Part shown: positions 2,346-35,113 of the stretch, piece after piece
Layout: every line of letters starts with the position of its first letter
How positions within the stretch are numbered: position 1 is the first letter of the stretch
NCBI GenBank assembly: GCA_029975555.1
Contig: JARKOY010000054.1
Span: 1-35,113 of the forward strand
Reading direction: 5' to 3'
Length of the DNA stretch: 35,113 bases
Source: Spirochaetia bacterium
GTDB lineage: Bacteria > Spirochaetota > Spirochaetia > Treponematales > Rectinemataceae
Position numbers and translations under genes: made by a program
The notes under the pieces: generated by a model
Database searches by the model: none
Told to the model about the DNA's origin: nothing
What the model saw: only the letters and a program-made list of their open reading frames with translations

Positions 2346-3431
2346 CTACCGTATCAAAAAAGCTTTATAGGCCTCTTCCTCCCCTGTAAGCACCCTTCGG
2401 AACTGCCGGACTTGATGTGCGATGATTTTCTGGTACGAAAGTCTGTCGTTTTCGGGTGGATAGAAGATGAGGCTGTCCATTTTCTCTTCGAATTTCTCCG
2501 CAACTTTTCGCGCGCCGTCCTTACTCAAGAGGACTCCCTTTACGCTTTCGCTCGTCTCTATGCTCTGCGCTTCAGCCTGATCTCCTTCGGTGAGGTGAAG
2601 CGGCGCATCATCGCTTTCTCTGGAGAAATCTACTGTTTCAAAATCAGAAGCATTCAGAATGCCCAAATTGAACAGCGCGCAGGTGAGGGTATCGCAGATG
2701 CTCGTGCGGTATTCTTCCATCAGATCAAAGCTTAAACTTCTCTTGCCGTACTCTATGGTGTGCAGGTATCCTACATAGGGGTCCATGCCTTCCATCTCGA
2801 TGAATGCATCCACACGGTAAAGCAGCAGTGTGTATAAAAAGCTCATGACTGCATTGACGTTGTCACGAGGAGGATTCATCGATCGTCCCTTGAATACAGC
2901 CCAGTCAGGGTTTATGTTCTGTTTAAACACCGAAAAGTATATCCTAGATCCCATGCCTTCATGGCCTCGTACGACGTCGATGGTCTGCGCTTCTTTCATC
3001 TGATCGAGGTTTCGCTGGGCCTGTGCGATTGCATGATCGACATTGACTTTGTCATTCTTCCGGTTGATGCGCTGCATGAAGGCAATCTGGTTCCCGATCT
3101 TTCCCGCCGCGATGGATTTTGCCACTTCGAGGCAGAATGCTTGATTGTTGAGCGAATCGTACTGGCGTTTACGCAGATGTACGTTTTTCCCTTCTTCAAA
3201 CTGGAGTTTGCCTGAAAACCTACCGTTGGAGCTCAAGAAGACTGTATCGATTTGATGGTGCATGAGCATGCGGAGTGCACTCCCGGTGATTTCAACCGAA
3301 CCGGCGATGATGATCCGATCCGCCTGATGCAAAAAGAGCTTCCGGACATCCCCAGAAGGAGTGGTGAACACCAACGCATCGTTCTGGCGCGCCAGTTTTC
3401 CGTGATCTGAAATGATATAGATAGTACTCAT
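2346..3431 (-). CDS. cas1: CRISPR-associated integrase Cas1
   Basis: A 361-residue Cas1 that inserts new spacers at the leader end of the array. The N-terminal beta domain (MSTIYIISDHGKLARQ) is followed by the helical catalytic domain. The metal-binding residues are visible: E158 in RGHEGMGSR, H224 in GYLHTIEYG, and the acidic SFDLMEEYR segment (D236/E239). The protein is somewhat longer than the common 320-340 residues. The extra length seems to lie in an acidic linker around residues 275-300, before the conserved C-terminal part (FEEKMDSLIFY). The gene lies 30 bp after cad1 and 5 bp before cas2. A non-reverse-transcriptase Cas1 like this one would be expected to take spacers from DNA. Confidence 0.97.
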   Translation of the reverse strand: MSTIYIISDHGKLARQNDALVFTTPSGDVRKLFLHQADRIIIAGSVEITGSALRMLMHHQIDTVFLSSNGRFSGKLQFEEGKNVHLRKRQYDSLNNQAFCLEVAKSIAAGKIGNQIAFMQRINRKNDKVNVDHAIAQAQRNLDQMKEAQTIDVVRGHEGMGSRIYFSVFKQNINPDWAVFKGRSMNPPRDNVNAVMSFLYTLLLYRVDAFIEMEGMDPYVGYLHTIEYGKRSLSFDLMEEYRTSICDTLTCALFNLGILNASDFETVDFSRESDDAPLHLTEGDQAEAQSIETSESVKGVLLSKDGARKVAEKFEEKMDSLIFYPPENDRLSYQKIIAHQVRQFRRVLTGEEEAYKAFLIR

Positions 3432-3461
3432 CTCTATGCCCTCACGTTCTCGTGTATTCCT

Positions 3462-5552
3462 CTACGGCAGAAGTTTGTGTATCAGATCTTCCAGCGTAGT
3501 GTCCGCGGTGGTATAAAGCCTTTCCTTTGTATCATAACTAAAAAAGCTGATATCGAGTGAATTCTTGCACAGTTGCAGGGCATCAAGGACACTGAGGCGC
3601 TCTTCGGTCATGTGCGATGCTTTGACGAACTCATGCGCCAAGGTTGTGCGAGAAATTCCTCTATTGTCGGTGTTGACGGTGACTTTAAGCCCATCATCGA
3701 GGTAACGCTTCAAAGGGTAGACTCTACCCGTTCGGACCCCGGCACAAAAATCGTCATATCCGATGATCTGATAATTTGACGATGGACAGAGCTCGATGCC
3801 GATGCGGCGATCGAGGAATTTGCGCACGAGCGCAGGGTTGTCGATCAAGGTCAGCCCGTGCCCAATTCGGTCTGCGTTTAGGGCATACACCGCATCCCAG
3901 ATACTTGTTGCGTCTTGGGTTTCACCGGCATGGATCGTGATCGAGATACATTCTTTAAGCACCTCGATAAAATCGTCACGCAGGCTTTTCGCCGAACGAG
4001 CATGTTCCTCACCCGCAACATCGAAGCCCCTGATGTACTGGTTGACCAGTGAACTCAGCTCTGGATCGCTGCAATTTTTCTGCAGATCAAGAAAATGTTC
4101 GATTGCTTTTTGTATTTCTTTACGATCCCTGTGTCGGGAAGCGATTAGAATGACAAGCACCTTCAAATCATTGTGGCTCGCATCAATTTCCTTCAGGATG
4201 GTTTTCAGCACCTGGTCATAGGAAAGCCCGCATTTGGTATAATTCTGTGGTGAGCAGCGTATTTCAAGGCCAATACATCCATCTTGTCTGCTTGCTTCGA
4301 GCAAGGCGCGTACCGCTTGCGTTATCGCGGTTTCGGTTTGCAAAAGCGTGCTACCTTGCAAGTCCCCAAGCTTTTCATACTTATAAAACTGAGGTTTTTC
4401 GCCGTCCCTGGATGCCGCCACACCGAAAAATGTTCGCTCGTCGAGGTAGTCTCCGTACCACAACGCTTCCAGCATTGGCTCATAGCCGCGGAAAGCCGCG
4501 AGTGTTTGTAAATACCGGCAATGATCAAGCGTTTTCAATATCGCAGGGTTACTGACAGCCTCCTCGATAGTCGCCCTCGCGTCCTCTAAAGAAAATGCCT
4601 TGTGCCCCGGGAATTCCTCTTCAAGCGCTGCTGCGGCAATCGCAACCGTATCTGCGATGCTGAGGCATCCACCCAGATGACAGTGCAGGTCTATCTTCGG
4701 AATTTTCCTCGCCGTGTCTTCATCGATGGGCGTCGTGGAGAGGCGTTCAATATCCTGATCATCCAAACGGTGCAGTATAGGGAAATTGCGCACAAGGCGC
4801 TGGTTGTGGCTGTGGGAAAACACGTTCCATGCTTGACGCAAGCTTTCTTCGAGGCGATCGGTCAATGATCGATCTGACAGAGGAAGCACCTCTGCCAGAT
4901 TTATGACCCCAGAGGACGCTGTGTAAGGAAGACTCAAAGTCTCTTTAGATTGATCGATCGTTGCTAAAAGATGACTGTTTCTTCGAGTAGTGCCATACCA
5001 GAGCGGTGTATAGTTATTCACTAAATCTTCTGGCACGGCCGAAGGCGGGTATTGAAGTATATTCCTCCGCTCTCCGTCCTGTGCGGCAATCACATGAATG
5101 AATCCTTCGCAACCAAGCGCATGTCCGGCACTGTGGAGGTCGCTGGTCATGGTCTTTCTGCCGCCCGCGATGGAGATGAAGACGCGCGTATCTCTTTTGA
5201 GCGCGGTATACACGAGCCTGGCAGCGCACTCTCGCGCATAAATGGCCTGGTCAGCGCTGCTGATGTCCTCGAATGGCAGCAGGTAGAAAGCAATATGAAA
5301 TAAATCGCCACAGTATTTTGCATTCCACTCGCGAATGTCGTGGACATACGATTCGACATGAGAATGCTTGGTAGTGAGCACCCACACCTCGCGTACCGGG
5401 TCTTGTCTAAAATAATCGTCATAGATTTGCTTTATTTCGTTATAGTGGCGGTGTGTAGGTGTGTACATGCCGAGCTCAGCGAAATTGGTGAGGCCGAGAA
5501 TTTCGGCTAGGATGCCGGGGCTTCCGCCAAGGCTCGCGATGAGGGTGGACAT
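3462..5552 (-). CDS. cad1: CARF-adenosine deaminase effector (Cad1-like)
   Basis: A 696-residue two-domain protein. Residues 1-170 look like a CARF sensor of the Cas_NE0113/Csx type, with a SLGGSPG loop at 7-13 and SIAGGRKTMTSDLHSAGH at 127-144. From about 284 to the end it is an adenosine-deaminase TIM barrel: H290/H292 in DLHCHLGG, H541/E544 in TIHAGE, H565 in DRIGHG, and D629 in NTDNRG. All zinc and proton-shuttle positions are therefore present. Known for the family: the CARF-ADA protein Cad1 binds cyclic oligoadenylate made by Cas10 and then deaminates ATP to ITP, halting growth of infected cells. Placed between csm5 and cas1, it is the only ancillary effector here; no Csm6 is seen. That this copy acts the same way is inferred. 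No clear ribosome site precedes the ATG, 13 bp after csm5. Confidence 0.9.
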   Translation of the reverse strand: MSTLIASLGGSPGILAEILGLTNFAELGMYTPTHRHYNEIKQIYDDYFRQDPVREVWVLTTKHSHVESYVHDIREWNAKYCGDLFHIAFYLLPFEDISSADQAIYARECAARLVYTALKRDTRVFISIAGGRKTMTSDLHSAGHALGCEGFIHVIAAQDGERRNILQYPPSAVPEDLVNNYTPLWYGTTRRNSHLLATIDQSKETLSLPYTASSGVINLAEVLPLSDRSLTDRLEESLRQAWNVFSHSHNQRLVRNFPILHRLDDQDIERLSTTPIDEDTARKIPKIDLHCHLGGCLSIADTVAIAAAALEEEFPGHKAFSLEDARATIEEAVSNPAILKTLDHCRYLQTLAAFRGYEPMLEALWYGDYLDERTFFGVAASRDGEKPQFYKYEKLGDLQGSTLLQTETAITQAVRALLEASRQDGCIGLEIRCSPQNYTKCGLSYDQVLKTILKEIDASHNDLKVLVILIASRHRDRKEIQKAIEHFLDLQKNCSDPELSSLVNQYIRGFDVAGEEHARSAKSLRDDFIEVLKECISITIHAGETQDATSIWDAVYALNADRIGHGLTLIDNPALVRKFLDRRIGIELCPSSNYQIIGYDDFCAGVRTGRVYPLKRYLDDGLKVTVNTDNRGISRTTLAHEFVKASHMTEERLSVLDALQLCKNSLDISFFSYDTKERLYTTADTTLEDLIHKLLP

Positions 5553-5565
5553 GGATATAAGAACC

Positions 5566-6627
5566 CTATGAAGTTTTTATGTGTTCAAACTGTATATGCA
5601 CCCACCCCATTGGTAAGTACAAATTTTTATATTTGAAAAGGGTCCTACTTGAATTGTCATATTTAGGGTTCTCGCATCGCCTTAAGCTGTTAAAAGTCAT
5701 ATATTCAAACTGGCTGTGCATACCTAAACGTATGACGAATTCGTTTTCTTTTTTTTCAATAGCCCCAATCTGGTCATCAATTACCTTGAATCCGCTATAT
5801 ACTGTATCATCAGCACTTTCATAATATGTCTTATACTCTTCATCAAGAAGGTTAAGATAAAATTCTTTGCACCTTCTAGCAATCTCGGGCAGATCAGGCA
5901 TTTCCCAAGCCAAACCTACCAATTTTTGAAGCTCAGTGTTAATCGAGAGAACACAAGTAGCTTCTGGAGGATGCTCTGTGATTGCTTGTCCTTTTATCAC
6001 CTCATAGAACATCTCCAGATTGGCAATTTTTTTAGTTTTTCGATTATAGAGAACAGCACTTCCTACAAGCCGTGTGCCTTTTCCATCGAAATATGCATCT
6101 GTTATGACAAGCGTTCTGAAAGGATCTTTTTGAGGGACACCTTTTTGTTCCTTTCGTATCGAATCATCTAGCACATCCATAACTGCGGTTCGTATTGCAC
6201 CTTTCAAGGAAGAACCCGGAATATAAGGCACAAGGGCCTTGCCAGCCCGAGGTGTTGCAATGGTTGGTCTCACAATGAATGAATTCTGAGGATGTTCTTC
6301 GAGGTCATTCCAAAGATAGAGCATATCATCGGTTATTTCGCTCAATGAAAGGATGATTGATTGATTTTTTGCAACTGCGTTATTTGCTATTTCAATAAAG
6401 AATAGACGCAATTTAGAAAGATCATCTTTTTGAGCAATCTGTAAAAATTTTTCTTTCTCTTCTTCATTTAAAAGCTGGATAAGCTTTGTATCATTAAAGC
6501 GAATAAAACGATAATCTTTATGCTTGGGATTTATATCTTTAATGATGTAGCTGAACGGCAGCAATTCCTCCCCAGTGCCAATATGAATTGGTGAAATAGG
6601 GGTAATATGCAGAAGATACTGTTTCAC
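5566..6627 (-). CDS. csm5: Type III-A effector subunit Csm5
   Basis: A Cas7-family RAMP subunit that caps the crRNA 3' side of the Csm complex. Typical motifs are ITPISPIHIGTGEELLP near the N-terminus and the glycine-rich loop IPGSSLKGAIRTAVMD. I chose the GTG start at 6627. It lies one base after the csm4 stop and has GGGGG at a good distance upstream. An ATG at 6648 would add seven residues (MKRQGDK), overlap csm4 by 20 bp and lack a ribosome site. The length (about 353 residues) suits Csm5. Codon usage is AT-rich like the rest of the csm block. Confidence 0.9.
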   Translation of the reverse strand: MKQYLLHITPISPIHIGTGEELLPFSYIIKDINPKHKDYRFIRFNDTKLIQLLNEEEKEKFLQIAQKDDLSKLRLFFIEIANNAVAKNQSIILSLSEITDDMLYLWNDLEEHPQNSFIVRPTIATPRAGKALVPYIPGSSLKGAIRTAVMDVLDDSIRKEQKGVPQKDPFRTLVITDAYFDGKGTRLVGSAVLYNRKTKKIANLEMFYEVIKGQAITEHPPEATCVLSINTELQKLVGLAWEMPDLPEIARRCKEFYLNLLDEEYKTYYESADDTVYSGFKVIDDQIGAIEKKENEFVIRLGMHSQFEYMTFNSLRRCENPKYDNSSRTLFKYKNLYLPMGWVHIQFEHIKTS

Positions 6628-6628
6628 T

Positions 6629-7558
6629 TTATCCCCCTGTCTTTTCATTAAAAAGCAATAACGGTGCCGCGCCCATACTTACGATTCTCTGATCAGTATG
6701 AACATTTCGCACAACAGTACCAGCATAGGGTTTTGAAAGTGGGTCACATGTGCTGCCCGTGTCAAACATGGCTATTGGTTTTTTGTAGGGGTTTTTTAGC
6801 GAATAAGCCATAATAGGACCAAGCTTGCCATGACGTACGGTAAAGTTTGATAAAAGACGAGGGAGCTGTGATGGTTTTGCGGCAACGCATCCAAGAGCCA
6901 TCATTCTATTCCCGGATGCAAGTGGAACGTACGGTATAACCGAAACTAACCGAACATTCCCATAGCCAATACTAGTTTTTCCTCCATATCCCAGAAGGAG
7001 GGCTTTGCTGAGTGTAATAAATACTTTTTCCGCATCCCATGACGAAAGACAATAAAGATCAAAGCGTTCAACGCTTTCTCCGTTGTCATCATCACCTTCG
7101 AGCTCCTTCTTTTTCCATATATACCCGCGCTCTGCCCATAACGCTCCCTCTTGTACGGTAGAGGTGACACGATTGATGGCATTTCGAACACGCAGGTGAG
7201 TAGACATAGTCACACTAAAAGCCTTATGCCTCTTAATAGATTGAATGATGGTATTCCAACTGAGCGGTTCGGAAAACAATTCCGCAGGTATGTATGAAAT
7301 TTTTGCCAATTTTTTAAATTGAATGTCATCATGTTCGGGTAAAGCCTCGGTCAATCTTGGCATTGGCAAAAAACCTTCCGGAAAGGCATGCGAACATAGA
7401 ATCGGAGGCTGTTCTTCATATTCATCAATGAATTTCTGTAAAGCCTCCTCCCCTTCTTCCAATGCAATGCTCCATGCGATATGACCCCATAGCGTATCGC
7501 TGACCAGTGGAGTTTTCAGCATGCCCTTAATTTCTAATTTGGCAATATACCAGTTCAT
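6629..7558 (-). CDS. csm4: Type III-A effector subunit Csm4 (Cas5-like)
   Basis: A 309-residue Cas5-group RAMP protein. In Csm complexes Csm4 sits next to Cas10 and binds the 5' tag of the crRNA. Supporting features are the N-terminus WYIAKLEIKGMLKTPLVSDTLWG, the FPEGFLPMPRL segment, the glycine-rich GYGGKTSIGYGNV loop, and the C-terminal NPYKKPIAMFDTGS region that Csm4 proteins share. A strong ribosome site (GGGAGGTG) precedes the ATG. The gene lies 27 bp after csm3 and one base before csm5 if the GTG start of csm5 is right. Confidence 0.92.
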   Translation of the reverse strand: MNWYIAKLEIKGMLKTPLVSDTLWGHIAWSIALEEGEEALQKFIDEYEEQPPILCSHAFPEGFLPMPRLTEALPEHDDIQFKKLAKISYIPAELFSEPLSWNTIIQSIKRHKAFSVTMSTHLRVRNAINRVTSTVQEGALWAERGYIWKKKELEGDDDNGESVERFDLYCLSSWDAEKVFITLSKALLLGYGGKTSIGYGNVRLVSVIPYVPLASGNRMMALGCVAAKPSQLPRLLSNFTVRHGKLGPIMAYSLKNPYKKPIAMFDTGSTCDPLSKPYAGTVVRNVHTDQRIVSMGAAPLLLFNEKTGG

Positions 7559-7585
7559 GAGACACCTCCCGGTGCGAGGACATGC

Positions 7586-8263
7586 TTACAATGTTATTGG
7601 TTTGTCTTCTTCATCTCTTAAATCGATGAATTTTATTTTGCCGTTACCACGACTTCCACCGCCGCCAAGATAGTCGTTTTCAAGCATTTTGAGGACGTCA
7701 AGTACCGTTGTTTTGAAAAGCTCTTCATCTCTTTTGCCCTTATCTCCCGTATCTATGATTCGATACGCAATTTCGAAATCAAAGGTAACTCCAGGTACAA
7801 CACGTTCTATGGGACGGGGATTTGCAACTGCGGTAATCCTGTTGATTGAGTTTTCACTTTTTTCTTCGATAATAACGTCAATCTTATCTTTAAATTCATC
7901 GGAAAGAAGCGCATCTCGAACAATAATTCTTGTGGGCCCTCTTTTCAGTGCGTGCTCCTCAGCAGACCTCGATATTGCTGCTCCATAAACCCTACATACA
8001 GGGCAATCCTCTTTACCGCATTTGCATGGTTCACCATTATTCTTTGGCTCTTCTGCGCCTATCCTCCCTAATTCCCACTCCAAAAGTGACCTCATCTTCC
8101 CTTTTAGCGAGGAACCTGGGATATACGGCAAGTTAGTCATCGGATCACGGATGATTGGGTTATCCATACCACCAATTTCTATTGCATCATTCCCTGCACC
8201 GATGTGGAGACCTGTCTCCACCTTTATTTTACCTTTGATTGTCTTGGTTCTTAAAAGTTTCAT
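7586..8263 (-). CDS. csm3: Type III-A backbone and target-RNA nuclease Csm3
   Basis: A 225-residue Cas7-type backbone subunit. Several copies line the crRNA and cut bound target RNA every six nucleotides. The catalytic aspartate is present as D34 in IGGMDNPIIRDP. The RNA-binding loop IPGSSLKGKMRSLLE follows at 48-62. A cysteine cluster CKCGKEDCPVC (80-90) matches the zinc site seen in Csm3 structures. The GGGGSRGNGKI loop near the C-terminus is also typical. The ribosome site GGAGGAAG lies about 9 bp upstream. Target-RNA cutting is therefore expected to be intact. Confidence 0.96.
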   Translation of the reverse strand: MKLLRTKTIKGKIKVETGLHIGAGNDAIEIGGMDNPIIRDPMTNLPYIPGSSLKGKMRSLLEWELGRIGAEEPKNNGEPCKCGKEDCPVCRVYGAAISRSAEEHALKRGPTRIIVRDALLSDEFKDKIDVIIEEKSENSINRITAVANPRPIERVVPGVTFDFEIAYRIIDTGDKGKRDEELFKTTVLDVLKMLENDYLGGGGSRGNGKIKFIDLRDEEDKPITL

Positions 8264-8289
8264 AATAAATCTTCCTCCAGTTATAAAAT

Positions 8290-8763
8290 TTATTTAACTT
8301 TTGCTATTTCATAATAATAGCCATATAGCGCTTCCATAAAATCAGCATAAGCGAGATATTCTTCCTTGGAATGGCATAAATCAATTAGGTTAAAAATCAT
8401 TTTTTTTAAATTATCATAGTAAGAGGCATCATTTTTACTATCATCAGATTTCCTTTTGCAAAGATAGCTAATCTTAGCTTTTTGCATTAATACTAAAGGA
8501 TAGATGTCTTGCCAGTCGCTCCCTGATCTCAACAAGAATTTAAAACGTTTTATTTCGTCGAACATCTTTCGCATCTGGGTTTTTGAAACCTTTTCCAATG
8601 CTCTTGCAGTCTGCGAAAGCACTTCCTGCTGAAAATTCTCTGGATTCAACTTCCCATTTTTGAGTAGTGGTTGAATCTTTGGTAAGTCTGGAGCTTTTAT
8701 TCCAGAATCTTTGTAGCTACCGCGTTGTTGGCCTGAATTGAAGCTGTTGAATTGATTAGGCAT
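8290..8763 (-). CDS. csm2: Type III-A small subunit Csm2
   Basis: A 157-residue, mostly helical, basic protein. Recognisable Csm2 features are the central LEKVSKTQMRKMFDEIKRF stretch, the SYLCKRK region, and the C-terminal FMEALYGYYYE. The first 30 residues are polar and probably disordered. Csm2 forms the inner helical filament of the complex, between Cas10 and Csm5. The gene lies 16 bp after cas10 and has an ideal ribosome site (AGGAGGT). Confidence 0.93.
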   Translation of the reverse strand: MPNQFNSFNSGQQRGSYKDSGIKAPDLPKIQPLLKNGKLNPENFQQEVLSQTARALEKVSKTQMRKMFDEIKRFKFLLRSGSDWQDIYPLVLMQKAKISYLCKRKSDDSKNDASYYDNLKKMIFNLIDLCHSKEEYLAYADFMEALYGYYYEIAKVK

Positions 8764-8779
8764 AATGACCTCCTATGCG

Positions 8780-11158
8780 TTATCTATCTCTATTTTTGTA
8801 CAAAGCATAGCAAATACTAATCTTTGATTTCCGCATCATCGCGTACTCCTCCTCAAGCAAGAATTTCATGAGATTATCCCAATACCCCTGGGGCAATGTA
8901 CTCCTAATTCTTTCTTGCATCCGCTTGATGGTATATTTCAAATGGGATAGCCAAAGCGCATTTTGTGGACTTAATACACCTTTATGGAATGCTTCTGCTC
9001 TATTACTGAAGTCAAGTAACTTCCTTAGAAGCGATGTAGGAATTCTACCATCCTGTATATCCTGAGAAAATTCCTTACCTTTTTTAAGCAGTGTATCAAA
9101 GTCATCCCATGATACGGAGACATTGAACACTGTAATCGCATTTTTATTTGGATTCCTTTTTTGGTTTTTTGATTCTTCCAGTTGGCTCTCTGCTTCCGCC
9201 GCGATATATGGAACCGGTGTAGAGCTATTTGCCAGTGCTATTCCTGCAGATATGGTAACCGAGGGATTCCCATGAACAAATCTATTGAATTCTGCATGGA
9301 TATCGTTGGCAAAATCGAAAATTTTATCCCATGGGCCAATAACACAGATATCGTCGCCTCCAGAAAATACTGTATAGATCGTGTCCTCATATTTCTCTTT
9401 AATGAACTTATTGAGTTCAACAGAAAAGAAGTAATGTATTTGCCGACTTAGGCTAGCAATTTTAGAAATACTCTTCCCTTCTCCCAACCCATCTTTGAAT
9501 ATTTTACCAAGATTATCAACATCAGCCTTGAACATAGCAAGTTTGTGGGTGCCTTGAGCTTTTTTTGCTATTTCTTCAAAGGTCAAGGGGGCTCCATTGC
9601 GGTCTCTTGGTATTGAATATGGCTGAGGATACATTGCATTAAAGGTGCCATCTATTCCATTGTATGAGTTCACTGCAAAGCAAATATTTTTCTGTGTTGC
9701 TTCACTTGAAGGGAAAAAGCAAAAATCAGCATAAGCCTTCGATTCTGATGAAGGGTGGAAGTTTTTCAACACCATCCAATTGCTTGAAGTAAGTCGACCA
9801 GCTTTATCAATCAATTCTGAACAATGAGCACACGCTCTTTTTTCGTTCGTTGCTTCAATGATTTCGCCTTGGTCTGTTTCAACAGGCCGATAGCCACATA
9901 AATCACAGATTTCTCTTCCGCTAACCTTGTCATAATAGTAATTAATTACCGGGCTTTCCATTTTTTCAAGCGTCGAATGGAATTTTCGTAGCTTAGTTCT
10001 ATAATTTTCTTTTTGAATTCTATTAAGCAATTCTTTAGTTTGATTTTGAGCAAGATCGGATGCACAAACTTCTACGTTCCAGCTTAACGCGAGCGCAAGT
10101 ACACCAAGATACTCTCTCATGAGGTATGCATTAATATCCTGCTCATACTGATTTAGTATTTTCTTCGTCTCTGGAGTATTAGGAAGGACAAGCAGAAAGT
10201 TGCCTCCGCCGTTCATCAACTCACACTGAGGTATCACACCACATTCGGAAAGAATGGTAGTGGCTACACTCCTGCAAAGCGCTTCTATCTGATAGCTCCT
10301 GGCACGGAGCAATTTGGAGGAATTTTTCGTATCTTCTATGTTGAATATATATTTTTGTATGCCTTGTACATCACCAAAGACGAGAAGGAATTTGCTATCT
10401 GCAACATTATCGAGTATTGCTTCCTTGTTGAGGCTTGAATTAGAAAGATGATACTTGTATGCGCACACCGCTAGGGCAGCGGTTACTCTCGAATGATCGT
10501 ATAATGATACATCCGGTTCTGTTTTGTATGTCGCGGAAGGGATGTAGGTCGTCCATCGTTCAAGAACCGCATCCAAATTGTAGAGGTATTGTTCCATGTT
10601 TTGATGTTTCGGGAATCGTCTCCAATCTTCAAGAAAGCCATCCCATAATTCTGAATATTGCTTCTTTGTTAGTACAGTTGTATTTAATATCCCTTTTTTT
10701 TGCGTACCATCATCTAAAGCGGCCAACGGAAGATTCACAGATTCAATTTTTTTTCTTTCTTCAAAGTGCACTTGGGATAGAACAGAAATAAGGGGAGCTT
10801 CATAGAATTTATAATCTGAATCGCTCTGTACTGACGATCTATCCAAACCGCTCGCCAAACGATCGCCGAGACTAATACAGAATTGTATTTCGTCATCAGG
10901 TCTATGATGATGCGCCGCATCAAGAGCAATTTTTCGCAAATCAGTTTTAAAATCAAAGCTTTCGGCAAGATGCTGTTCAAGAAAACCGAGCGTATACAAC
11001 GCGTGCTGATGACTAAATCTCTCCTTTTCATAGGGGAGGATTATACCTTCATCTTTAGCACTATAGTATTCTCTTCGATCAGCTCGCTGAGCAAATTTGC
11101 CAATATCATGCAAAAGCGAAGAAACTGCTATTGAAAACACAGTATTTTCCACAGCCAT
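8780..11158 (-). CDS. cas10: Type III-A Cas10 (Csm1), HD nuclease and cyclic-oligoadenylate synthase
   Basis: A 792-residue Cas10. The N-terminal HD domain carries H17-D18 in LLHDIGKFAQRADR and a further histidine cluster AAHHHRP (82-87), so single-strand DNase activity is plausible. A zinc-binding pair is at C418/C421 and C443/C446. The second Palm domain holds the intact cyclase motif SGGDDICV (GGDD at 600-603) and ADVDNLGKIF near 546. It should therefore make cyclic oligoadenylate on target-RNA binding and feed the CARF domain of the downstream deaminase. AAAAGGAG sits directly before the annotated ATG, too close for it. A GTG two codons later (11152) has ideal spacing and may be the true start. 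Confidence 0.97.
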   Translation of the reverse strand: MAVENTVFSIAVSSLLHDIGKFAQRADRREYYSAKDEGIILPYEKERFSHQHALYTLGFLEQHLAESFDFKTDLRKIALDAAHHHRPDDEIQFCISLGDRLASGLDRSSVQSDSDYKFYEAPLISVLSQVHFEERKKIESVNLPLAALDDGTQKKGILNTTVLTKKQYSELWDGFLEDWRRFPKHQNMEQYLYNLDAVLERWTTYIPSATYKTEPDVSLYDHSRVTAALAVCAYKYHLSNSSLNKEAILDNVADSKFLLVFGDVQGIQKYIFNIEDTKNSSKLLRARSYQIEALCRSVATTILSECGVIPQCELMNGGGNFLLVLPNTPETKKILNQYEQDINAYLMREYLGVLALALSWNVEVCASDLAQNQTKELLNRIQKENYRTKLRKFHSTLEKMESPVINYYYDKVSGREICDLCGYRPVETDQGEIIEATNEKRACAHCSELIDKAGRLTSSNWMVLKNFHPSSESKAYADFCFFPSSEATQKNICFAVNSYNGIDGTFNAMYPQPYSIPRDRNGAPLTFEEIAKKAQGTHKLAMFKADVDNLGKIFKDGLGEGKSISKIASLSRQIHYFFSVELNKFIKEKYEDTIYTVFSGGDDICVIGPWDKIFDFANDIHAEFNRFVHGNPSVTISAGIALANSSTPVPYIAAEAESQLEESKNQKRNPNKNAITVFNVSVSWDDFDTLLKKGKEFSQDIQDGRIPTSLLRKLLDFSNRAEAFHKGVLSPQNALWLSHLKYTIKRMQERIRSTLPQGYWDNLMKFLLEEEYAMMRKSKISICYALYKNRDR

Positions 11159-11174
11159 ACTCCTTTTATCATTG

Positions 11175-12095
11175 CTAATTCAATATTTGGTATGACATCT
11201 CTCCTAAACCAAATACTGTATTCTTTCCAATATGAAAAAGTCTGCCTCCTTCAAGCAATTTCTGTTCTTGCCGCCCAACAGTCCCTTGTAGGAGTAAAGA
11301 ACCAATCACGCCGCCAAGTTCCATTTCTGTCTGTTGCCGGTGTGAATAACGTTTAAAATCTTTCCATAAAAGCTTTCGGTCGGTAATACAAATATCACCC
11401 GGTATATGAAACTTATGAATAGCATGATCATTAATACCATTTTCTTGATTTTCATAGAGCAGAGAGAGCGATACAGTCCTTCGATAAAGAGTCCCAAAAA
11501 ATGAATAAGAATCAAACATTGTTGTATATTTGCCCATATATTTGATTCTTGCTGGTGTTCTGAACAACACTATCACCGAATTCACAACAGGATTCTCTTG
11601 AGACGAAAGGTCAAATTGCTGAACAACTGGTCTTCGTAGTGCCTTTCCAAGAAGTGAATTCTGGTTTATTTCATCAAGGACTTGAGAAACCTCAAAATGG
11701 ACTTTTGAAGCAAAAACCCCTTCTTTACCAGCCTGCTGCAACGCATAGATGACAAAAGGAAAATATTCGATACCTTTTCCAATTAGTGTGAGTATAAAGT
11801 CATACCCTAATCCATTATCTGATACTGATCCATGGGTAAGGATAAAAGGATGATAAGCCCTGTTTCTTCCTTGCAGTATAGAATTATCCTGTGGCAAAGG
11901 ACTCTCGAAAAGAACTGAATAAGCACATGATTGAACAAGGATACAATTATCACATACAGACTGACGTTGAATACAGCAAATCTTTTTGAGATACACGCCT
12001 AATATCGATCGAATGAAAAAAGTCGGAATTGTTGACCAGCGGACAGGAGATTCAAATTTTAATGAGAACGCTGTTTTAGTATACGACAATTTCAT
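11175..12095 (-). CDS. cas6: CRISPR pre-crRNA endoribonuclease Cas6
   Basis: A 306-residue Cas6 of the family found with type III systems. The N-terminal RAMP fold carries a cysteine motif (C48, C51, C57 in VCDNCILVQSCAY) followed by VLFESPLP. The C-terminal half has KRYSHRQQTEMELGG, GVIGSLLLQGTVG and the final glycine-rich loop LFHIGKNTVFGLGE. Cas6 cuts the repeat RNA eight bases before each spacer, which would give the ATTAAGAC tag here. AAAAGGA lies about 10 bp upstream of the ATG. It is the first firmly identified gene of the operon, 16 bp before cas10. Confidence 0.92.
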   Translation of the reverse strand: MKLSYTKTAFSLKFESPVRWSTIPTFFIRSILGVYLKKICCIQRQSVCDNCILVQSCAYSVLFESPLPQDNSILQGRNRAYHPFILTHGSVSDNGLGYDFILTLIGKGIEYFPFVIYALQQAGKEGVFASKVHFEVSQVLDEINQNSLLGKALRRPVVQQFDLSSQENPVVNSVIVLFRTPARIKYMGKYTTMFDSYSFFGTLYRRTVSLSLLYENQENGINDHAIHKFHIPGDICITDRKLLWKDFKRYSHRQQTEMELGGVIGSLLLQGTVGRQEQKLLEGGRLFHIGKNTVFGLGEMSYQILN

Positions 12096-30839: not shown

Positions 30840-30945
30840 TTGTATGCCTTCTTGCTTCTTGAGAGTATCAGAATATGTGTTGTTGCCAGAAACGACTGAA
30901 CGGGCAGCGAAAGACTGTTTCAGCCCGTGCAATACTGTTTCAAAT

Positions 30946-31076: not shown

Positions 31077-31826
31077 ATGCAGAAAACCACCTACGGCAAT
31101 GTCATCGCATACACATTCGCGCCCCAGTCCATACCGAGGGTCTGCCACACCATCTACGCGGTAAAATCAGAAAAAAGCCTGACCATCATCGATCCATCGA
31201 GCGAGGCCATGGTGGAAGAAATCAAAAAGGATGATGATGTTGATGTGAATCGACTAGAAAACATCATCATCTCCCACTACCACGGCGACCATATCAGCGG
31301 CATCGCGCGACTGCCCAAGAGCACCGTCTGGGGCAGCGAACACTACGCGGAAACCCTAGCCAAAAGCTGGCCCCCCTCTACCCTCGAGCTTGTGAAACCG
31401 TCTGTCGACTTGAAATATGGCATTCAATACAACCTCAGCGGGGTACCCGTCCGGTTCTACCAGGGGCGCGGGCACACGGCCTGCGGCATCTTGACGGTCA
31501 TCGGAGATGCATGTATCCACACAAACGACATCATCGGCTTCAACGACCGTGGAGACCCGATACTCCCCCTGATATTCGATTCCGCCTACGAATATCATAG
31601 GACAGTTCAGAAGATATTGGGATTCAACCTGAACATCATAGTTCCGCACATGCAGATTCTCGACCAGACGAAGATCAGGACCACCCTTCTGATTTACAGA
31701 GCATATCTCGAAGGAATCCTCGAATACCGGGAACGATTCGACCTAAAAAAATTCGAAGAGAAACAAGGCGTATCCTTCGATTACGCCATGCACCACTCGA
31801 AGAACCTGAGGCACCTGGGGATATGA
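31077..31826 (+). CDS. Metallo-beta-lactamase-fold hydrolase, function unknown
   Basis: A 249-residue MBL-fold protein. The metal motif is SHYHGDHISG (H67, H69, D71, H72), and further ligands are probably supplied by GRGHTACG, TNDIIG and VPHMQ. The ATG at 31077 has AGGAGA at the right distance; an ATG 21 bp earlier lacks one. No signal peptide is seen, so it is likely cytoplasmic. The gene stands alone, divergent from the por operon. The substrate cannot be named; glyoxalase-II-like or other thioester and phosphodiester hydrolases are possible. Confidence 0.88.
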   Translation: MQKTTYGNVIAYTFAPQSIPRVCHTIYAVKSEKSLTIIDPSSEAMVEEIKKDDDVDVNRLENIIISHYHGDHISGIARLPKSTVWGSEHYAETLAKSWPPSTLELVKPSVDLKYGIQYNLSGVPVRFYQGRGHTACGILTVIGDACIHTNDIIGFNDRGDPILPLIFDSAYEYHRTVQKILGFNLNIIVPHMQILDQTKIRTTLLIYRAYLEGILEYRERFDLKKFEEKQGVSFDYAMHHSKNLRHLGI

Positions 31827-31954: not shown

Positions 31955-32485
31955 ATGAAAAAGACTTTCAGTACCGTCATGATTCTGGTGGTCGGCATAC
32001 TATTTCTCGCTTCGTGCGCAACGCTCCCTAAAGGAGCGCGAGTGGTAGACCACTTCGAAAAAGAAAAATATCTGGGGAAATGGTATGAAATCGCCCGCTT
32101 CGATTTTGCCTTTGAGCGGAACCTCAATAATACGACCGCAGAGTACTCGATACGTCCAGACGGGACCATCAATGTCAAAAACAGAGGCTACAACTACGTA
32201 ACCAAAAAATGGCAAGAGGCAAATGGTAAAGCCAGATTCAAAGGAGACGATACCGTCGCTGCCCTGGAAGTCTCTTTTTTTGGACCATTCTATGCCGCCT
32301 ATAATGTCATTGCACTGGACAAAGACTATCAGTATGCGCTCATTGCAGGAAGTAGCCTAAAGTACCTCTGGATACTTTCAAGAACAACGACGATACCGAA
32401 TGACGTACGCAATGAGTATCTCACCATAGCACAGAGTCTTGGATACGATGTTTCAAAACTAATCTGGGTCGAACATGACCAATGA
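31955..32485 (+). CDS. blc: Bacterial lipocalin lipoprotein (Blc-like)
   Basis: A 176-residue lipocalin. The type II signal peptide ends in the lipobox LASC (C21), so the mature protein is a membrane-anchored lipoprotein. The lipocalin signature GKWYEIARFDFAFERN (41-56) and the later YNVIALDKDYQYALIAG and YLWILSRT strands are all present. The length equals that of E. coli Blc. The family binds fatty acids or lysophospholipids and is linked to envelope maintenance and stress. A strong GAGGAGG ribosome site precedes the ATG. It is apparently a single-gene unit. Confidence 0.93.
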   Translation: MKKTFSTVMILVVGILFLASCATLPKGARVVDHFEKEKYLGKWYEIARFDFAFERNLNNTTAEYSIRPDGTINVKNRGYNYVTKKWQEANGKARFKGDDTVAALEVSFFGPFYAAYNVIALDKDYQYALIAGSSLKYLWILSRTTTIPNDVRNEYLTIAQSLGYDVSKLIWVEHDQ

Positions 32486-32967
32486 TTTTCTTACGTCCAG
32501 GAATGAACAATTCAATCGAACGCCGGCCTTGGAAGACATTTCATAACCATGCTCGAGGGTAGCGGTATCGCTGCAGCTTGTCTTGACATAGAGCTCGGAT
32601 CTTTCCGGTGCAGGCGGGCGGATATTACACCCTTATTGGCTGCGATTTTTTCCCAAGGATTGAAAGTACCACTGAAAGTGCCTGCATAGCGCAGAACCTC
32701 GCGGCGACGGGGCATCCACACCCGCTCCTCGGAGACCTTTCGGTCGCCTGCTCGTTAGACGTATCACCTGCCGCGAGGCCAGTAAAATTTTAATGCCAAC
32801 CGGCCCATATAGCAATTGGAATATCATCGGGCATCTCGCATGTCGCTTCCTGGGGGATCATAAGGCTCACTTGCATGGATAATCGCAACTGCATCGCACA
32901 ATCTCCAAAAGCCACATCACCATTGCACAAATGTCAATTTCATCAAAGGGCCAAAGGAGGGCTTCTC
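32486..32967. other. Gap of 482 bp without a recognisable gene
   Basis: GC-rich like the host genes, but no frame with a ribosome site or a known family. A minus-strand frame at 32512-32721 (69 codons, including YAGTFSGTFNPWEKIAANKG) reads somewhat protein-like and could be the worn end of a lost gene. The last 100 bp lead into the orphan I-C repeat. No terminator after the lipocalin gene is evident. Confidence 0.4.
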
Positions 32968-32999
32968 ATTTCAATCCACGCGCCCGCGTGGGGCGCGAC
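32968..32999 (-). repeat. Single orphan type I-C CRISPR repeat
   Basis: On the minus strand the 32 bp begin GTCGCGCCCCACGC and end GCGTGGATTGAAAT. This is the classic type I-C repeat pattern with its GCGCCC/GGGCGC-rich stem. Only one copy occurs. It is followed by 24 bp (33000-33023), too short for a full I-C spacer, and then the first type I-E repeat. It is best read as the remnant of a lost type I-C array. Confidence 0.85.
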
Positions 33000-33023
33000 T
33001 TGTAGACGGGATGACGCAGCGTG

Positions 33024-35113
33024 CGGTTTATCCCCGCATGCGCGGGGAACATCGCCGATACATCCCCAGCATTCAATGCATCAGCAGGTTTATCCCCGCA
33101 TGCGCGGGGAACATACTACTCGGAGTGGAAGGCTGAGAAACGTAGACGGTTTATCCCCGCATGCGCGGGGAACATTATCCTGATCCAATCGTCGGAGTAG
33201 GTCAGTGCGGTTTATCCCCGCATGCGCGGGGAACATTCAATCGCCCATTATTCGGCGATATAATCGATCGGTTTATCCCCGCATGCGCGGGGAACATATG
33301 ATTGCTTCTGCCCATGTACAGGCACGTAACGGTTTATCCCCGCATGCGCGGGGAACATCTACTGCGTCACCCTGCATAGGGACGCGCGCGCGGTTTATCC
33401 CCGCATGCGCGGGGAACATTATCCAATATTTGTATACAGTTCGATTATCATCGGTTTATCCCCGCATGCGCGGGGAACATCCGCCGAATATCTGTCAATC
33501 AGCGAAGCGACGCGGTTTATCCCCGCATGCGCGGGGAACATTCGTTGAGTGGAATGTATACGATATTCCGCGTCGGTTTATCCCCGCATGCGCGGGGAAC
33601 ATCGGTCAAGCCGGGCGAGCATTTGCAAACCCGGCGGTTTATCCCCGCATGCGCGGGGAACATAGCTCTGCGGATGTCGCGAGCTGCACCTTTCCCGGTT
33701 TATCCCCGCATGCGCGGGGAACATCGTACCTATGCGCATAGATGTGGTCTAGTGCGCGGTTTATCCCCGCATGCGCGGGGAACATTGTAGTATGCTATAG
33801 GGTATGGACACGATCGACGGTTTATCCCCGCATGCGCGGGGAACATATCAAAGGAGGTACACATGGAAAAGGTGTACCACGGTTTATCCCCGCATGCGCG
33901 GGGAACATGTTGAGAATTATGGCAATGCGCGCAGGCTGACGGTTTATCCCCGCATGCGCGGGGAACATAATTCTATCTGTACCTGAATTTTGTCGATATT
34001 CGGTTTATCCCCGCATGCGCGGGGAACATTAGCACATCCAGTTGAGAAACACGAAGCACAGCGGTTTATCCCCGCATGCGCGGGGAACATGCAACTGCTG
34101 GAGTATAGGAGCCAGTTCTAAGCGGTTTATCCCCGCATGCGCGGGGAACATTATTATTTGTGATTTTACTCATTCTGGCCGCGCGGTTTATCCCCGCATG
34201 CGCGGGGAACATTCAATCGCCCATTATTCGGCGATATAATCGATCGGTTTATCCCCGCATGCGCGGGGAACATTCAGAAAGGTCTCCGGCCTCCAGAATT
34301 GTCGCCGGTTTATCCCCGCATGCGCGGGGAACATTCCGGAAAGACCAGCTCATCCTTGTGATGCAGCGGTTTATCCCCGCATGCGCGGGGAACATCAATA
34401 TGTCGCCTCAGCATTATATGGTAGATCACGGTTTATCCCCGCATGCGCGGGGAACATTGCAACAAGCCGATGTTGCATAACTCAAAGCCCCGGTTTATCC
34501 CCGCATGCGCGGGGAACATTGCAACTTTATCAATAACATTTGTTACCCATTCGGTTTATCCCCGCATGCGCGGGGAACATACGGATGATGCTCGTATACA
34601 GATTGGGGACATCGGTTTATCCCCGCATGCGCGGGGAACATGACACTGAGCGTCCGCTCCGGTCAGTGAAGGTCGGTTTATCCCCGCATGCGCGGGGAAC
34701 ATTTCTACAAGATCAATCGCCGCTAGCGGTTGACCGGTTTATCCCCGCATGCGCGGGGAACATGTTGCACTATTGTTGCTGCTGTTCTTCATTGTCGGTT
34801 TATCCCCGCATGCGCGGGGAACATTACATATGGCGACAACGCCCACCAATGAGGACCGGTTTATCCCCGCATGCGCGGGGAACATATCAAAATGCAGCCC
34901 GGTGATCGGGCGGTCGTCGGTTTATCCCCGCATGCGCGGGGAACATCTCTAAAAACGCGGGCGCTCGCCCATCATATACGGTTTATCCCCGCATGCGCGG
35001 GGAACATTGGAACCCATGGATTATTATCGGTTCGAAGCACGGTTTATCCCCGCATGCGCGGGGAACATTGGAACCCATGGATTATTATCGGTTCGAAGCA
35101 CGGTTTATCCCCG
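33024..35113 (-). CRISPR. Type I-E CRISPR array, 34 full repeats plus one cut by the window edge
   Basis: A 29-bp repeat, read on the minus strand as ATGTTCCCCGCGC then ATGCGGGGATAAACCG. It matches the E. coli-type I-E repeat, with the 8-nt crRNA tag ATAAACCG. The period is 61 bp from 33024 to 35101. Spacers are 32 bp with a few of 31 or 33 (33053-33085, 33847-33879, 33909-33939, 34400-34457 region, 34458-34490). Repeat 2 (33086) has A for C at its first plus-strand base, as expected of the old end. The crRNA direction implies the leader and the I-E cas genes lie to the right, outside the window. Repeated spacers are described in the findings. Confidence 0.98.

Follow-up and report, generated by a model that had tools for sequence, protein, structure and literature searches.

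A lone type I-C CRISPR repeat at the leader-distal end of a type I-E array in a Spirochaetia bacterium

The array junction and its components

The window, by which we mean the whole stretch of DNA analysed (35,113 nucleotides), corresponds to contig C31 of genome G000, whose assembly comprises 179 contigs totalling 3.27 Mb and was treated as a metagenome-assembled genome (MAG). At its end, a metallo-hydrolase gene and a lipocalin gene are followed by non-array DNA, a single 32-bp repeat and a type I-E CRISPR array (Table 1). Read on the minus strand, the order in the assembly is the I-E array, its last repeat, 24 bp, the 32-bp repeat and non-array DNA, and the two repeats that border the 24 bp have the same orientation. 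The arrangement is thus the one described in the original prediction, a type I-C repeat lying 24 bp from the leader-distal I-E repeat. With the type III-A cas genes located elsewhere in the window, traces of three CRISPR types are present, as had also been claimed.

Table 1. Features of the window around the repeat junction
Feature	Position	Strand	Evidence or remark
Block collinear with G020 contig C9	21207..31824	.	10.6 kb, 85-86% nucleotide identity
Metallo-beta-lactamase-fold hydrolase gene	31077..31826	+	closes the stretch in common with G020
Lipocalin gene	31955..32485	+	
Non-array sequence past the relic	32486..32967	.	without I-C repeats above background
Relic type I-C CRISPR repeat GTCGCGCCCCACGCGGGCGCGTGGATTGAAAT	32968..32999	-	sequence match to sister repeats; stem-loop -14.3 kcal/mol
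24-bp joint CACGCTGCGTCATCCCGTCTACAA	33000..33023	-	unique among 30 family genomes; no viral match
Leader-distal I-E repeat	33024..33052	-	perfect
Leader-distal part of the I-E array	33024..35113	-	34 repeats and part of another; continues past the contig end

The 32-mer, which reads ATTTCAATCCACGCGCCCGCGTGGGGCGCGAC on the plus strand, occurs once in the whole 3.27-Mb assembly when up to three mismatches are allowed, rather than in many unrelated places as a sequence unconnected with CRISPR might. The reversed-sequence control gave no matches, and the number of chance matches expected at 31 or more of the 32 positions is negligible (about 3e-11). The I-C-type repeats of sister genomes differ from it by one to three bases: the copy in genome G019 is identical at 31 of 32 positions, two mismatches separate the relic from the repeats that accompany the I-C cas operons of G023 and G015, and the I-C repeat of G020 differs at one or two loop positions as well as at the last base. 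This last base is T in the relic, the sole difference from the G019 copy, and C in every sister I-C-type repeat compared. The RNA of the relic is predicted to fold into a stem-loop with a 7-bp stem. By this stem-loop and its match to arrays associated with cas8c, cas5c and cas7c, the relic can be assigned to type I-C on sequence grounds.

A functional I-C array, with at least two repeats and spacers of about 33-38 bp, was not found around the relic: it is a single copy, the next best site from position 30900 to the relic scores 18/32 against a background of 18-20, and the window holds no cognate I-C cas operon. The relic shares the 32-bp repeat, the stem-loop and the 3' part GTGGATTGAAA with the I-C arrays of the same spirochaete genus or family (G023:C60/C52 and G020:C9), with two to three mismatches, but it differs from them in standing alone, with neither a spacer array nor a leader or cognate cas genes, and in its altered last base. 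We conclude that it is probably the leader-distal (oldest) terminal repeat of a lost I-C array. It appears to be non-functional at present: transcripts of the I-E precursor may include it at their 3' end, but I-C machinery matching it was not found. A search of Rfam gave nothing relevant at the locus. Within the non-array DNA, a 63-bp intergenic stretch (32696-32758) has 92% identity to G017 (L048:6633-6695) and contains no I-C or I-E repeat.

The original prediction had noted that the 24-bp piece is short for either system, and the measured lengths agree: spacers measure 31-33 bp in the window's I-E array and 33-38 bp in the I-C arrays of relatives, where one outlier has 46 bp, so that the joint is too short for both types. 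We take it to be the remainder of one spacer, or of two, truncated when the arrays were joined. It had no match besides itself in 30 family genomes and in viral contigs. An exact search for the end of an I-E repeat separated by 10-40 bp from an I-C repeat yielded no second instance in about 85,000 genomes, which suggests that intact junctions are rare, so strict a pattern being blind to degenerate ones; a looser I-E-to-I-C junction pattern found none in viral contigs. We also considered that the I-C repeat might have been captured as a spacer by the I-E system and rejected this, as it starts 24 bp past the I-E repeat, overruns any spacer boundary and is not followed by another I-E repeat.

The I-E repeat (29 bp, with spacers mostly of 32 bp) is found in 34 copies at the end of C31, in 27 copies at the end of a second contig, C166, and nowhere else in the genome. 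Most likely these are parts of a single array that starts with its leader on C166 and finishes with its oldest repeats on C31, the sequence between the contigs being unassembled. The I-E cas genes are absent from the window; on C166 the order is cas3, cse1, cas7e, cas6e and cas1e, followed by the I-E array. In a profile scan for Cse1, Cas7e, Cas6e, Cas1e and Cas3, TIGR02547, TIGR01869, TIGR01907 and TIGR03638 scored above cut-off, and Cas3 was identified by TIGR01587. With Cse1, Cas7e, Cas6e, Cas1e, Cas3 and a downstream array, the C166 locus is of type I-E. The GC content is 0.394 in the I-E cas genes and 0.587 in the flank upstream of them (flanks 57-59%), a step as expected for a foreign cassette. 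The system spanning C166 and C31 resembles type I-E in these five Cas proteins, in the 29-bp repeats and in the mostly 32-bp spacers, but unlike type I-E its array ends in a repeat of another subtype, without a decayed I-E terminal repeat. The lack of terminal decay in the leader-distal I-E repeat suggests that the I-E array has lost its genuine terminus. Two pairs of spacers are exact duplicates, 33237-33268 with 34213-34244 and 35008-35039 with 35069-35100; the latter pair is neighbouring and at the contig end, and would reflect a duplication or an assembly loop.

The two flanks in related genomes

On the relic side, the closest syntenic relative is G020, a same-genus Spirochaetales MAG (Spirochaetales bacterium isolate DFE_TRE1), whose contig C9 (JADLKI010000010.1) matches the window up to the end of the metallo-hydrolase gene. 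Homology stops at the gene end, and beyond it the two sequences diverge into CRISPR sequence. In the window, the next elements are the lipocalin gene, the I-C relic and the I-E array. G020 has a 23-bp I-C fragment (L043:6868-6890), about 1.6 kb on a degenerate I-C repeat (~8450-8478), then a degenerate I-E repeat (L043:9578-9606), a truncated I-C repeat and an I-C array, which has the same orientation as the array in the window, with its old end facing the shared metallo-hydrolase gene. The degenerate I-E repeat matches at 24 of 29 positions (background at most 20) and retains the I-E stem-loop fold. The part of the G020 array close to the contig end appears error-rich, and no cas8c was found in G020 with TIGR01863.

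The orders in G020 and the window thus describe one site, occupied by I-C in G020 and by I-E in the window genome, where each genome also keeps a remnant of its counterpart's subtype. Like the relic in the window, the I-E relic of G020 lies at the old, leader-distal end of an array of a different subtype, at a syntenic site and in the same orientation. Unlike it, the G020 case has the reverse pairing (I-E relic, I-C array), is more decayed, and lies about 50 bp from a truncated I-C repeat. In the stretches read, proximity of the lipocalin gene to an array seems peculiar to this genome: in G020 the gene lies in another place, in G015 it is not near CRISPR sequence, and in G017 it sits at the end of a contig on which no I-C or I-E repeat was seen. 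We therefore dropped the lipocalin flank as a syntenic marker, and the presence of the gene between the shared block and the relic shows that the site underwent further rearrangement.

On the cas side, the I-E operon on C166 is preceded by a group of genes that is collinear with G015 and G017 and encodes, among others, a WYL/WCX regulator and a protein of 229 aa. The stretch homologous to G015 (L006 1483-5946) ends directly past the 229-aa gene, about 510 bp ahead of the I-E cas3. In G015 a I-C cas operon and array come next, in the order cas5, 724-aa Cas8c, cas7, cas3, cas4, cas1c and I-C array, whereas the G017 contig ends at the end of the shared genes. A WYL gene also adjoins the canonical I-C cas operons of G023 and G019. 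PADLOC lists WYL regulators as CRISPR-associated, so that the WYL gene alone is weak evidence for a common chromosomal place; the shared place is indicated because the genes beyond WYL also match in G015 and G017. The G015 operon (G015:C1, L046:979-8975) is a divergent one, and its Cas8c was missed by NCBIfam and Pfam and matched by PADLOC PDLC01562.

The original prediction had proposed a search for I-C cas genes and arrays in this genome and its relatives, and a comparison of the syntenic site. The comparison showed I-C arrays in G020 (relic side) and G015 (cas side). The search returned the I-C loci of G015, G023 and G019, the I-C array of G020 and, in the genome itself, a single I-C-like cas operon on contig C84 (L007, G000:C84:1-8561; GC 0.616), with a Cas8c just under the TIGR01863 cut-off. 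The repeat-like sequence at the end of that contig has 13 mismatches in 32 positions to the relic, which, together with the GC content of 62%, indicates that C84 is probably not the relic's source. Searches for I-C cas remnants on C166 and in the window gave weak matches only, mostly cross-matches of Cas1 and Cas3 to the resident I-E and III-A genes.

Origin of the junction

CRISPR-Cas loci turn over rapidly, and a displaced system rarely leaves a readable trace. We consider it likely that in this case an I-E cassette of foreign origin took over the chromosomal site of a resident I-C locus, whose terminal repeat stayed behind. A I-C locus would originally have stood between the relic-side and cas-side flanks. 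A low-GC foreign cassette, made up of the I-E cas operon and its own array, would have entered and supplanted both the I-C cas genes and their array, and the distal end of the I-E array would have been joined to the last I-C repeat by deletion or illegitimate recombination, leaving 24 bp. Pointing to this replacement are the relic and its orientation, the flanks common on both sides, the I-C loci at those flanks in sister genomes, and the GC step. The synteny on both sides of the I-E locus, from two independent comparisons, also lends support to the suggestion in the original prediction that a I-C array relic was joined, by deletion or recombination, to an I-E array now occupying its site. Against replacement, the WYL regulator could travel with cas genes, though the match to G015 and G017 extends past WYL, and C166 and C31 are separate contigs; among the relatives, no single genome was found with both flanks around an intact I-C locus, G020 representing the relic side and G015 the cas side. 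Further points against it are the loop differences between the G020 repeat and the relic, the lack of a TIGR01863 hit for cas8c in G020, and the lipocalin gene interposed at the site.

The original prediction had offered a further possibility, namely that a foreign Cas1-Cas2 integrated the I-C repeat. Cas1-Cas2 inserts spacers and duplicates a pre-existing repeat, and is not known to import one; because this alternative is at odds with the known mechanism, we regard it as unlikely and reject it. A more serious competitor, which we still consider improbable, is that I-E and I-C loci lay side by side and that the I-C cas genes, together with every I-C repeat except the last, were lost through a deletion reaching from one array into the other, so that the cas position was never replaced. 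The 24-bp joint is compatible with a deletion between two spacers, and G020 carries relics of both types in a row; yet in G015 the I-C cas genes directly follow the same genes, at the position held here by the I-E cas genes, and no tandem I-E/I-C locus was seen among the loci examined. A single replacement event seems to us likelier than a side-by-side stay followed by deletion.

Two other explanations, in our estimation, have very little chance of being correct. Solitary repeats are known in viral genomes, and an experimentally tested I-C example, RacrIC1, has been described (PMC10651486); the relic resembles such repeat-mimic anti-CRISPR RNAs (Racrs) in being a lone CRISPR repeat without cas genes, and the same 31-mer is solitary inside two IMG/VR contigs, so that a Racr-like role for a repeat brought by a phage or plasmid is possible in principle. 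The context argues instead for an array remnant. Racrs are on mobile elements, often directly downstream of a promoter (PMC10651486), whereas the relic abuts a co-oriented array 24 bp away, at a site with a I-C array in a sister genome. Its neighbour genes are metabolic or chromosomal and not phage-like, the flank gave no phage match, its sole plasmid match covers 41 bp at the repeat, and a consensus scan found no promoter-like site just upstream on the minus strand. The remaining explanation is that the assembler fused two genomes at a CRISPR repeat, as might happen in a MAG-like assembly of 179 contigs in which the GC content of C84, C97 and C146 deviates. Even with a false join at one or the other repeat, however, the repeat-24 bp-repeat sequence would have to exist in some genome, since the same unique 24 bp is bordered by both repeats. 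The left flank, moreover, has 85% identity to a genome of the same genus.

The terminal repeat of an old subtype fused to a new array, the I-C loci at the same flanks in sister genomes and the reciprocal relic in G020 constitute direct evidence for in-place subtype exchange. The literature searched, from which most subscription papers fell outside the scope, contained no precedent for cross-subtype arrays or in-place subtype replacement. The relics of G020 hint at further I-C/I-E/I-C turnover at the site. Tentatively, the site could be a serial landing place for CRISPR-Cas subtypes in this genus, at which terminal repeats record the succession, I-C then I-E in the window and I-C, I-E, I-C in G020. 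The finding also points to a simple way of scanning genomes, by looking at the leader-distal ends of arrays for a repeat of another subtype, and, if true, reciprocal terminal-repeat fossils could order subtype turnover in other places.

Other CRISPR-Cas sequences in the window and elsewhere

The type III-A locus of the window (2346-12095) has a GC content of 0.43, compared with 0.57 at 12300-32485, and encodes a CARF-adenosine deaminase protein (3462-5552; PADLOC CARF5--CARF_ADA). Contigs C84, C97 and C146 of the same assembly, which deviate in GC, may be contaminants, and the I-C-like operon on C84 may accordingly belong to another organism. C97 (L005) carries a second I-E system with a different repeat and a GC content of 0.577, and C146 (L016) a type II-like cas1 on a contig of 38% GC; both may be foreign to the MAG.

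Lone I-C repeats were also seen in two other settings. In G019:C114 there are two non-array copies (L042:1096-1127 and 2194-2225), one of them perfect, which may be decayed remnants or solitary units. The copies in the two IMG/VR contigs (L090:532-563 and L091:3785-3816) are exact lone I-C repeats and are possible candidates for type I-C RNA anti-CRISPRs.
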